Positions 30,061 to 64,000 of a DNA stretch of 64,000 bases are shown here, piece by piece. Position 1 is the stretch's first letter. The number at the start of each line of letters is the position of its first letter. The position numbers were made by a program, and so were the translations under genes. Location of the stretch: assembly GCA_002973635.1 (NCBI GenBank), contig CP027224.1, positions 3,606,501 to 3,670,500 on the forward strand, written 5' to 3'. The notes beneath the pieces are model-generated. The model was not told the DNA's origin. It saw only the letters and a program-made list of their open reading frames with translations, and made no database searches. The DNA is from Lysinibacillus sp. B2A1 (GTDB lineage Bacteria; Bacillota; Bacilli; Bacillales_A; Planococcaceae).

Positions 30061-30214
30061 AATAAACTCCCCTTTGCAATTCAAAAATGAAATTCCAAGC
30101 CTTCATGCATAATAAAAAGCTATACCTTGTTAGATGTGATTTAGTAATGTTGACGTCTCAGCAATCATCTATTTTAATTTTTAATGCCTGTTTCTCCATC
30201 TGTCAATATACAAC

Positions 30215-30243
30215 TTGCCAAATTACTATATCTATTTTATAGT
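30215..30243 (+). promoter_or_regulatory. Sigma-A promoter for the bpsA-speD fusion
   Basis: TTGCCA (30215-30220), a 17-bp spacer, and TATAGT (30238-30243) form a good vegetative promoter. Transcription would start near 30250, giving a leader of about 245 nt before the ATG at 30495. Confidence 0.65.
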
Positions 30244-30323
30244 AATAATACTATTTTATTAAAGGGTGAACTTTTTGTTAAATGTAGAATTCTAATCTAA
30301 ATCAACGTTATAGCTTATTTTTG

Positions 30324-30398
30324 ATGAACAAACCACCTTTAAACGGGTGTTATTTGTTATGCAAAAAAGCAAGATTAGAATTAGTTAGCTTTGTATAA
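30324..30398 (+). CDS. Possible 24-codon leader peptide
   Basis: An ATG-started frame (MNKPPLNGCYLLCKKARLEL, then VSFV) lies wholly inside the leader, crossing the inner hairpin and the P1/antiterminator strand. It contains a PP pair, a motif that slows ribosomes. No Shine-Dalgarno sequence is visible, so translation is doubtful. If translated, it would offer an attenuation mechanism in place of a riboswitch. Confidence 0.25.
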   Translation: MNKPPLNGCYLLCKKARLELVSFV

Positions 30399-30404
30399 AC
30401 ATTT

Positions 30405-30432
30405 AGCGCGACTAATTTTAGTCGCGCTTTTT
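30405..30432 (+). terminator. Leader terminator (attenuator)
   Basis: Perfect 11-bp stem AGCGCGACTAA / TTAGTCGCGCT with a 2-nt apparent loop (opening to a usual tetraloop or larger when folded), followed by TTTTCT. No plus-strand gene lies upstream for more than 7 kb, so this hairpin can only serve the leader of the gene that starts 63 nt later. Confidence 0.85.
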
Positions 30433-30494
30433 CTATTCGTTGATTTAGACAATTTTAATTTCTTTCCAGTTAAAATTGAGAGGACGAATCTACA

Positions 30495-32000
30495 ATGCAA
30501 AAACAATTACAACAAATTACAACTAATATGCGGCTTGAAGAACATTATCATACATTAGAAAAGGCATTACTTGCTTTATATTTCCATAAAAATTGTACAA
30601 CTAAATCTTTAGCTTATATGACAGACTTACCAATACCTATCGTTTCAGCAATGAAGAGTGAATTTGCTAAGCAAGGCTGGGGTAAACATAGTTTAACGAA
30701 AAAGGGACAGCTTGCTATCTCACAGTATTTTCAACTCTCAGGTGCTGATACTGAACTTTACCTTCAATTAACGACAGATTATGTATTTCATACTGAATGG
30801 ATTGCACAAAATATTAGTGAGTTAAGCACGATTTATGATGCGAGACCCACAGCGGACGTAGCGCTAGATCAAGCCAAATGTACAGTAGAGACAGCCTTAA
30901 AACGTGCATTGCTCGCACTAAACTATACGATGCTACTTAATAAGCGCATTTTATGTTTAGGAGATGATGATTTCATCAGTATTGCATTAGCATTTTTACT
31001 TAAAAAAATCGCTCCACATTCTACAACTAAAATTATTGTATTAGATATTGATAGACGAGTTTTAAGTACGATTAGCAAAATAGCTAAAGATTATGAACTT
31101 CCGATTAAAACAGATTATTATAACGTTCAGGAGCCTTTGCCTAAAACATACGCCCATCAGTTTGATTGCGTATACACAGACACACCGTATACCTTGATTG
31201 GCGCACAGCTCTTTTTATCACGCGCAATTAATGCACTAAAGCCTGAAGCAATGCGACATGTGTTTTTTTCCTACGCCAAACGCAGCTATCAAAAGCAGTG
31301 GGAGCTACAGCAAAGCTTACATGCTATGGGCTTTGTGATTAATAATATTCATTACGACATAAACAACTATGAAGGTGCACAGATTTTAGGCGCTACAAGT
31401 CAGTTATTCGTATTACAAACAACAGACCAAATGATTTCCTATATTCCTAATCAGCGTAAATTTATGCGACCAATTTACACAGGAGAAGTTGAGCGGAAAT
31501 CTGTTGTTTATCAGTGTAATCATTGTAAGAACTCACTTACAGTCGGAGCTGGCAATGAATACATTACGATTACTCAGCTCCATTCCAGTGGTTGTCCAAG
31601 CTGCAAAAATAAAAAGTTTTCACAAATAAAGAGAATAGTACAAAAAACACAGTCCCAGCATGCATTAGGTCATCATATTTTATTAGAGTTGCATGATTGT
31701 GACGTTGCATTACTTAATGACGTGCAAAAAATTAAAACAATTATGTGTCAAGCTGCCCACAAAGCAAAGGCAACAATTGTAACCGAACATTTCCATCACT
31801 TTTCACCTTATGGAGTTAGTGGTGTAGTCATTATTCAAGAATCGCATTTGACAATTCATACATGGCCAGAATTTGGTTACGCGGCAATAGATGTTTTCAC
31901 TTGTAACAGTAAATTAGCTTTACAAGAGGCTGTACAATATATTACTGAGCAATTTAATGCAGGAAATGTCACACAGCATTACGTACATCGAGGTAAATAA
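30495..32000 (+). CDS. BpsA-like aminopropyltransferase fused to SpeD
   Basis: A 501-residue cytosolic fusion for polyamine synthesis. Residues 1-85 look like a winged helix; 110-320 are a BpsA-like branched-chain polyamine synthase with the GDDD motif (156-159), VLDIDRR (182-188) and YTDTPYT (227-233, in place of the usual TDPP). A ribbon with C341, C344, C367 and C370 links to a full SpeD (about 388-501). SpeD active residues have the canonical spacing: ES cleavage at E449/S450 (pyruvoyl source), H455 and C470. SpeD makes decarboxylated AdoMet, the aminopropyl donor used by BpsA to branch spermidine, so donor and transfer steps are in one chain. GAGAGG precedes the ATG. The gene is controlled by the structured leader and is monocistronic. 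Confidence 0.88.
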
Positions 32001-59130: not shown

Positions 59131-59193
59131 TCGCATAGTGAAAAAACGGCTTTTGACCTGAATCACTATCCCCATCCTCGTGGTTGAAGTAAA

Positions 59194-59366
59194 GATTAAT
59201 ATTGGCAGGTATCCTGGCTTAGGTTCATCATCTATACGCCTTCCCATAGTATGACTATAGTGGCATATTGTATAGACTCCCCATTTACAGTTGCGGGACA
59301 GCATCGGATTCTCACCGATTTCCCTTTTAAGCAAATGACAAAGGCCATTTGCACCAATATAAAGAT
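59194..59366 (-). promoter_or_regulatory. Cobalamin riboswitch 1
   Basis: On the minus strand the conserved parts occur in order: P1 strand, GGTGAGAATCC-type junction, CTGTCCCGCAACTGTAA, and the B12 box AGCCAGGATACCTGCC, closed by TATTGG / CCAATA. The downstream terminator shows transcriptional control. B12 binding would stop expression of the binding protein and the reductase-like gene. Confidence 0.95.
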
Positions 59367-59612
59367 TTATTGTTATAAATATTATTGATAGACTAGCAAA
59401 AGTAATTTCTGTTCGCAATCTCACAAAAAAATCCATTTACTTATTATCTTTATTATTATAGCACTATTCTTACAAAATCGAGAACTATTTTACATTAATT
59501 ATTTTTCATAATCATTTGATTTGGAGTACTATTATGACATATTCGTATTTCTTGAATTCAACAAAATTCTGTTACAATGAAGTAGACGGATTTATAGAAA
59601 CGAGGATTATTT

Positions 59613-63003: not shown

Positions 63004-63040
63004 GCCACCTCCTATTCCTCGTAGGGTTATGGTGTGTACT

Positions 63041-63207
63041 CATAATAGGCAGGTATCCTGACTCATGATCATCGCTACTTTTCCCCTTCCCGTCGTTAAA
63101 CAGTGGTATTTGAAAAGTCGCTCACATTTACAGTTGCGGGACAGTGTCGGATTTGCACCGACTTCCCTTTTCAGTAAATTGCACGCAATTTACACCTATT
63201 ATTACAC
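63041..63207 (-). promoter_or_regulatory. Cobalamin riboswitch 2
   Basis: Minus-strand core elements: GGTGCAAATCC, CTGTCCCGCAACTGTAA and the B12 box GTCAGGATACCTGCC, closed by AATAATAGG / CCTATTATG. No terminator lies between it and the ORF. A CACC at the aptamer's 3' side can pair with GGTG in the ribosome site, so control may be translational. Confidence 0.93.
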
Positions 63208-64000
63208 GCTATTCAGTTGTTAAGGAATCGTGTTTACTTCACATTCCTTATAGCTTACTAGTATTAATTGTAAAGTAGTATTTTTCCAAAGTCAATTACC
63301 ACAATATATAGTATATTCCTAAAAAAATACTTTCTTCATTAAATAATTGGAAAAATGATTGTTACGATTATTGTTTGAAATTGTATGACATATATTTTCA
63401 ACAAGCCACTTTATCCTATTAACTGCTTTTCAGTTGGTTCCGTATCATGATTTTGAAGCCCCTCATAAATATTTGCATGTTTTACAAAAGAACTTTCATT
63501 TCATCCCTCCATTTTGCATTTGCATGGATATAATAATAAGCTCAAAATAGAGATACATTAAATACCTTTTAGCTTTTCATAATATTGAATATCTATAACT
63601 TACAAGCCATCAATAATCAAACACCCCACCATTTTCAGGTCTTGTCGAATGGGTAGCACATCATTCTTTATTGAGCTCATACAAAATACATGTACCTGAA
63701 TATCTTTGATGATTCTTTAATTCAAATAGCTATAGGTATTGATATAAACTTCCTTGCTATTCTTCAATTCATACATGTACCCAGCAAGCCTTTGACCCTT
63801 CTCATGGTAATCTGTCCATTTCGCACCCCTTCTTCTTTTGCATAACAAAAAAGCCTCGCATAAGTGCGGGCTTTTATAATCTTGAAAGTGTCACAGGCAA
63901 TGGGCCATTTAATTCAACGTTGTACAAATGTTGTAAACTCCATAAGTTATATTTATAGTAGAATCTAAAAATTCACTTTTTCTACCTTTCTTCTATTACA
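63208..64000. other. Intergenic region with terminator and gene scrap
   Basis: AT-rich spacer that contains the riboswitch-2 promoter. Minus-strand codons at about 63717-63835 (AKWTDYHEKGQRLAGYMYEL, VYINTYSYLN and stop) look coding but have no start. A strong terminator AAAGCC(T)CGCA / TGCGGGCTTT with T tail lies at 63847-63876, consistent with transcription entering from the right. Nothing else is recognised. Confidence 0.45.

Follow-up and report, generated by a model that had tools for sequence, protein, structure and literature searches.

In mammals, the SAM decarboxylase gene AMD1 is preceded by an upstream ORF encoding a hexapeptide; this eukaryotic control acts on translation only and is specific for the peptide sequence. 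In bacteria, the leader of vmlR, which encodes an ABC-F antibiotic resistance factor of Bacillus subtilis, is composed, according to the accessible part of PMC9226507, of 1- a uORF (MIN) lying in the anti-antiterminator, 2- a pause hairpin, 3- the NusG TTNTTT motif, 4- a terminator and 5- a hairpin that sequesters the Shine-Dalgarno (SD) sequence. The SD and the start codon of this uORF are required and its peptide may vary, as stated in the same part of that paper. The leader ORF of Salmonella speF (orf34) likewise precedes a polyamine gene and acts on both termination and translation, and speF expression rises with the substrate ornithine under control of this ORF (PMC6386406, sections available). 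Terminator control of polyamine genes is also exerted in genera neighbouring our host by the spermidine riboswitch, a SAM-I variant (PMC10853860, sections available). Other decarboxylase-aminopropyltransferase fusions are treated in PMC11107197, in whose accessible part the word BpsA is absent, and PMC2965389 makes no mention of speD, mutS, polyamine or the two genera checked. No published account of a bpsA or bpsA-speD leader was found in a search outside which most subscription journals and preprints lay.

The window analyzed here, a stretch of 64,000 nucleotides from Lysinibacillus sp. B2A1, carries at 30495–32000 (+) a gene in which a branched-chain polyamine synthase is fused to an AdoMet decarboxylase (bpsA-speD), as assigned by Pfam (BpsA_C, E 1.7e-41; AdoMet_dc, E 1.3e-40) and NCBIfam (TIGR03330). 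Spermidine is the BpsA substrate and branched polyamines have been tied to heat in thermophiles (PMC12979288, accessible part). A whole-genome protein search at E 0.001 detected no SpeE homologue in the host genome and no SpeD besides the fusion.

All leader elements lie on the same (+) strand. The sigma-A-like promoter TTGCCA-17-TATAGT (30215–30243) is weak as a motif match by itself, since 7 promoter-like sites occur in 901 bases against 5.0 expected; its −35 and −10 boxes are recognisable in the aligned homologues despite 25% divergence. Downstream lies the SD AAAGGGTGA (30261–30269; duplex with the 16S 3′ end of −8.7 kcal/mol) of a mini-ORF, TTG TTA AAT GTA GAA TTC TAA (30275–30295), encoding MLNVEF*. 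The end and stop codon of the mini-ORF are overlapped by the 5′ strand of helix P1 (30288–30298), the anti-antiterminator, which pairs exactly over 11 bp with a 3′ strand (30372–30382) that is also used by the antiterminator. Within P1 are found P1b (30313–30323 with 30362–30370) and the hairpin P2 (CACC...GGTG, 30327–30358), a candidate pause hairpin that holds TTATTT (30350–30355), a candidate TTNTTT pause motif. The 5′ strand of the antiterminator (30364–30386) has its core at 30373–30386, which pairs 30410–30423 with 3 G-U, and the helix is longer than first described, 30364–30370 pairing 30426–30432 with the U-tract included. The intrinsic terminator and its U-tract occupy 30405–30432 (stem 30405–30428), of which 30410–30432 doubles as the antiterminator 3′ strand; the terminator is present in 17/17 aligned leaders, with one mismatch in L038 and L040. 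An earlier note on this DNA had listed the promoter, the 11-bp P1, its inner hairpin, a 14-position antiterminator with 3 G-U and the terminator, and each was recovered exactly where it had been placed; absent from that reading were the mini-ORF at the P1 5′ strand and a pairing of the 5′ strand past the terminator, which we call H1.

In fact, the P1 5′ strand is also complementary to the stretch between the terminator and the start codon. H1 comprises H1a, a long-range helix of 30296–30313 with 30433–30449, past the terminator (15/17 positions of this 3′ strand are invariant), and H1b, where 30283–30292, within the mini-ORF, pairs 30486–30494, directly before the ATG. In addition, a hairpin CAATTTTAA/TTAAAATTG (30450–30478) adjoins the gene’s own SD (30478–30483); among the relatives, its closing C-G became U-A in L045 and one internal mismatch is seen in L049 and L050.

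The likeness to vmlR lies in the parts of the plan, and the downstream genes differ. An SD-led uORF in the anti-antiterminator, a candidate pause hairpin with TTNTTT, the antiterminator/terminator pair, a hairpin at the gene’s SD and a variable peptide all have their counterparts in what is available of PMC9226507, where, however, the pause hairpin sits at the antiterminator apex, TTNTTT lying here within P1. Also unlike vmlR, the 5′ strand folds back toward the start codon and the mini-ORF has 3–12 codons. The product of vmlR is an antibiotic resistance factor, and an antibiotic response of the present leader is not known. The speF leader differs by its 34 codons, Rho-dependent termination, arginine codons and phylum (PMC6386406, sections available), and the spermidine riboswitch by its SAM-I fold, the present leader being without a match to RF00162.

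The leader represents a real, conserved attenuator family, and we consider that it probably works as a vmlR-type attenuator under ribosome control. Sequence and comparison show that the pairings exclude one another and that the mini-ORF is present and conserved; what we infer is that the polymerase pauses, that a stalled ribosome is the signal, and what the inducer is. In a leader free of ribosomes, P1 would form, followed by the terminator, and transcription would stop. The polymerase probably pauses at P2/TTATTT, which would leave time for a ribosome to load on the mini-ORF. If held near the mini-ORF stop, this ribosome would cover the P1 5′ strand, allowing the P1 3′ strand to pair with the terminator, and read-through would follow. 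In the read-through transcript, a free 5′ strand would fold back past the terminator to the start codon (H1); since it is onto the start region that this strand folds, occupation of the leader by a ribosome would release the gene’s start as well. Slowed or blocked translation is the most likely signal because a MutS2-like gene shares the leader family (see below), and spermidine is our second choice.

Several observations bear on the mini-ORF. Its SD is the strongest among the start codons within the leader (the gene’s own SD reaches −9.4 kcal/mol), and the −8.7 kcal/mol duplex falls within the best 3% when set against 3000 17-mers drawn at random from the window. From SD to TTG (30259–30277), 19/19 positions are invariant in 15 loci, making this the most conserved block, compared with 13/96 invariant four-fold sites (16 loci). 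An in-frame-stopped mini-ORF occurs in 18/18 fusion leaders, encoding MLNVEF* or MLIVEF* in 14, MSIVAF* in 1 and MLL* in 3, the stop of the last three lying 6 nt upstream of the stop position of the other leaders. The length ranges from 3 to 12 codons across the leader family, and from 3 to 6 before the SAM decarboxylase fusion, and the peptide sequence is not conserved. A short leader ORF with its SD is found inside the anti-antiterminator, by sequence and comparison only. When a ribosome was modelled at the mini-ORF stop, termination was predicted to switch to antitermination in 11/17 leaders (free, 1/17; ribosome at the start codon, 4/17). In this model P1 was removed and the accessibility of the start codon rose from 0.14 to 0.57–0.75, and that of the gene’s own SD fell from 0.69 to 0.35–0.47.

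The pairings themselves were compared with shuffled sequences. The fold of 30250–30440 beats 200/200 dinucleotide shuffles (z −4.0), and the antiterminator was equalled by 0/1000 (z −5.9). P1 alone is unremarkable by duplex energy (98/1000 shuffles as good), and its support thus rests on comparison. For H1a, 0/1000 shuffles were as good (z −5.9), its segments having been picked after the alignment fold had revealed them; H1b alone is weaker (49/1000). Over the whole H1 segments, the real partner was equalled by 13/1000 shuffles, the control 30100–30178 by 5/1000 and the other control by 173/1000; as the first control rivals the real partner, the evidence lies in the compact H1a and not in overall complementarity. 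RNAalifold on 17 leaders pairs the 5′ strand with the P1 3′ strand and also with bases between the terminator and the ATG. With either helix forced, P1 is favoured over the antiterminator by 0.7–10.3 kcal/mol at the U-tract in 17/17 leaders, and at full length H1 plus antiterminator is favoured over forced P1, again in 17/17; the free full-length minimum is the H1 plus antiterminator fold in 11/17 and lies below it in 6/17. Mean probabilities in the free ensemble are 0.96 for H1a and 0.62 for the antiterminator. H1 is compatible with a standing terminator (−66.4 vs −67.9 kcal/mol), and by this modelling it would not require the antiterminator.

Anti-antiterminator, antiterminator and terminator are predicted to be mutually exclusive in the window leader and 16 relatives, and the three-state attenuator logic that the earlier note had read before a polyamine gene is thereby upheld, the exclusive pairings being conserved across the fusion leaders. 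The named pairs are intact in 97.8% of cells among these leaders, against 37–51% when slid. The covariation that the same note had proposed to look for came out divided: within the fusion leaders only 3 pairs show changes on both sides, little covariation being seen because the sequences are too alike, whereas P1 does compensate between groups, four pairs (−5 to −2 from the stop) having changed on both sides between fusion and other leaders. The alignment folds included 17 of the 18 fusion leaders (L007 was left out, and is included in the divergence and mini-ORF sets).

The leader is under strong constraint, its pairwise divergence being 8.4% vs 27.5% at the gene’s four-fold sites (16 loci; the gene-rate counts exclude L049 and L050, whose genes are broken). 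By part, in the same 16 loci, divergence reaches 58% far upstream, 25% in the promoter and 45% in the P2 loop, and just 4.3% in the 62 bases from terminator to ATG. In L049 and L050, the fusion gene is broken and the leader is kept. The 18 distinct fusion leaders come from several Bacillaceae/Planococcaceae genera. Within the genus, 12/32 genomes match the fusion protein, 9 with the fusion (2 broken) and 3 with a SpeD match only, and the family search added 2 fusion-bearing genomes. Thirteen named-strain contigs carry the fusion, six of them being genomes already counted; they belong to Lysinibacillus, Neobacillus, Siminovitchia, Cytobacillus, Bacillus, Sporosarcina and Ornithinibacillus. Inspected by eye in ten loci, neighbour genes are all different except in L042 and L044, which are alike; as the neighbours differ, the leader seems to move with its gene.

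Leaders of the same plan were found before standalone bpsA and before MutS2-family genes in two other families, f22 and f11, for which Brevibacillus-like is our guess. The combined set holds 53 distinct leaders: 18 of the fusion, 24 of bpsA, 10 of mutS2 (both of these labels were taken from short downstream protein patterns) and that of L125. In many of the f22/f11 leaders, the mini-ORF has seven codons and reads M [S/L] [V/A/T] x V L N, and P1 spans its last codons and stop. Among 34 seven-codon leaders, the start is ATG in 30, TTG in 3 and GTG in 1, and the stop is TAA in 28, TAG in 5 and lost in one; the search pattern itself demanded a start, GTN CTT AAC and a stop-like codon. All 30 loci drawn from the covariance search (L175–L204) fit this pattern. 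In L135, which lost its stop (the ORF then has 12 codons), the P1 partner strand is also changed and has one extra base; in L137, GTG for GTT is synonymous for the peptide and leaves a mismatch in P1. The stem at the P1b position in 21 bpsA leaders shows changes on both sides in 6/8 pairs (for 5 of these, in three or more sequences), with 0 to 5/21 sequences broken per pair. Antiterminators of bpsA/mutS2 leaders gave z < −2 in only 13/32, and of the other 19 at least 8 scored low because the script picked a second hairpin. In L139 and other bpsA leaders, inspection by eye shows a second terminator-like hairpin that follows the attenuator and precedes bpsA; the SD region of the mini-ORF also seems, by eye, complementary to bases directly upstream of the bpsA SD.

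A covariance model built on the 21 bpsA leaders only (R2) recovers the leader of the window with 28.1 bits (E 7e-5; E-values of the models built here are rough), and in 7/7 other fusion loci given to it the leader is the best match of its source. As one P1 strand mirrors the other, R2 also picks up its own leaders on their reverse strand, at 21–29 bits. The fusion leaders score 21–33 bits on the correct strand and the best other match in their sources reaches 16 bits, for which reasons the link is retained, with care. R2 matches 25/39 genomes of family f22, with strong matches at bpsA leaders (109–164 bits, one at 51.7) and in a second set at 63–80 bits, one further match at 33.6 bits and others at 22–29 bits that are mostly reverse-strand echoes. 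It found no leader before bpsA in 11 loci of other families (including L084 and L091), nor in L136 and L134/L149. By pattern, the GTTCTTAA/TTAAGAAC pair is missing in 10/10 loci, among which L135 and L137 carry variant leaders. BpsA_C is above cut-off in 41/398 genomes of the class. In another class, L125 holds a 40%-identical pair of BpsA and SpeD, whose leader has an SD, a mini-ORF that encodes MNVGLLI*, a P1 of 14 exact bp spanning the stop and, by eye, terminator-like hairpins; R2 gives it only E 0.13. When 38 relatives of G969 were searched, no further relative was returned at E 1e-40.

The second R2 set precedes a gene matching NCBIfam mutS2 above cut-off (2/2 proteins, N-terminal parts); two full ORFs of this set carry MutS_V, and Smr is absent from them in a search extended to E 0.1. 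In the L160, L162 and L165 genomes, the leader precedes this MutS2-like gene upstream of bpsA or a bpsA fragment (L195, L196 and L194), and in L206 leader, MutS2-like gene and bpsA stand in a row, the genes 4 bases apart. We know of no polyamine role for this MutS2-like gene, whose relative MutS2 is a ribosome-rescue ATPase. B. subtilis MutS2 splits stalled ribosomes, according to the accessible part of PMC10897456.

The main rival is a metabolite riboswitch for SAM, dcSAM, spermidine or a branched polyamine, whose aptamer would be formed by P1, P1b, P2 and the joining strands, the mini-ORF being incidental or a second layer. Indeed, P1 and a P2-like hairpin recur in distant groups, P1b changes on both sides, 43/53 leaders precede polyamine genes by label and a spermidine riboswitch is known in neighbouring genera (PMC10853860, sections available). 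Moreover, an AAY...AUA element follows the P1 5′ strand in 52/52 leaders, by a loose pattern lacking a chance control; unexplained beyond the fusion group, it could be part of an aptamer. TTNTTT stands on the P2 3′ side in 47/52 leaders against 7.4 expected from mononucleotide shuffles, and as a candidate pause motif it offers an aptamer-free explanation of the recurrent UUAUUUG, exact in 34/52. Against a riboswitch, 80 of the 85 invariant positions at 30250–30386 in the window’s group are paired in one of the two predicted folds; only 5/85 are unpaired in both, compared with 24/137 of all positions. Start and stop codons of the mini-ORF are swapped among relatives, and the MutS2-like gene shares the leader. 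The earlier note had seen no S-box, T-box, cobalamin, PreQ1 or ykkC core sequence, and Rfam 15 agreed, with no family reaching its gathering threshold in this leader; an E-value scan extended to E 5 produced 8 matches, each scoring far too low for gathering, and RF00162 has none in 30200–30520 up to E 5. In the leaders of 14 related loci there was likewise no gathering match, the sole match being a cobalamin riboswitch elsewhere in L050, and in 12 further loci searched up to E 0.5 one below-gathering match lay away from the L125 leader. A known class was ruled out by these scans. We find a metabolite riboswitch rather unlikely; a polyamine riboswitch is less likely than the ribosome-mediated attenuator. 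The note’s choice of ligand (SAM, dcSAM or a polyamine) is left unsupported, the mini-ORF block being the most conserved one and the leader family also preceding a MutS2-like gene. Elsewhere, the host genome has 7 SAM riboswitches, one preceding an ORF that by eye resembles SAM synthetase, and the window has two cobalamin riboswitches (59187–59373, −, 127.5 bits; 63031–63214, −, 123.6 bits).

Perhaps the signal read by the ribosome-mediated attenuator is a polyamine, under which initiation or termination at the mini-ORF would become slower, making the leader a bacterial counterpart of the AMD1 upstream ORF. An upstream ORF of 3–6 codons does stand before a SAM decarboxylase fusion, and imported spermidine is conceivable as the inducer, as neither SpeE nor another SpeD was detected in the host genome at E 0.001. 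Yet the peptide is not conserved and the MutS2-like gene is without a known polyamine link; we regard this version as distinctly doubtful. In its favour is the ornithine-induced leader-ORF control of speF (PMC6386406, sections available). Put more broadly, a new regulon of Bacilli in which the mini-ORF attenuator senses polyamine, or polyamine-dependent translation, on the ribosome and induces both branched-polyamine synthesis and a MutS2 relative lacking Smr, much like the mammalian SAM-decarboxylase uORF, is a doubtful proposal.

A protein or small RNA masking the 5′ strand would act at the one site on which both folds depend; the cassette surroundings differ in 8/10 loci, two sharing theirs, so that several families would need to possess the same regulator, and we judge it very improbable. 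A+T-rich helices and the branched polyamine-heat link in thermophiles (PMC12979288, accessible part) could be invoked for a leader that acts as an RNA thermometer or as a constitutive structural element; this reading is scarcely credible, as it needs neither an exclusive terminator/antiterminator nor a conserved mini-ORF.

With the vmlR-type attenuator as the preferred reading, an apparent orphan riboswitch becomes a leader family that can be tested by changes to the mini-ORF SD and start codon. Its prediction is that branched-polyamine synthesis and the MutS2 relative form one response to troubled translation, and if so, bpsA in mesophiles would have a role other than heat. By its design, one 5′ strand would control termination and, via long-range pairing, perhaps the start codon as well.

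Finally, the spread of the leader was followed at the DNA level in searches that scored only 2–3 candidates per genome. At order level (261 genomes), fusion leaders were recovered 11 times, along with 5 short matches and two partial copies; at class level (398 genomes), the matches were the window’s own leader and 4 short ones. Carriage by plasmids or phages was rejected, there being no DNA match to the leader and no plasmid record with at least 80% of the fusion protein. A leader 17-mer gave 9 matches in viral contigs, roughly chance by our guess (the collection size is not stated), and covariance model R1 reached at most 19.1 bits in these contigs. Weak R1 matches at recurrent sites of the genus (E 0.05–1) were judged chance, the four inspected lying at coding-gene edges. 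The two partial copies, in L062 (1491–1627) and L068 (1496–1620), are without the fusion gene and have a similar upstream gene beside them; in L068, the TTG is gone and a GNAT-like ORF (by eye) lies downstream.
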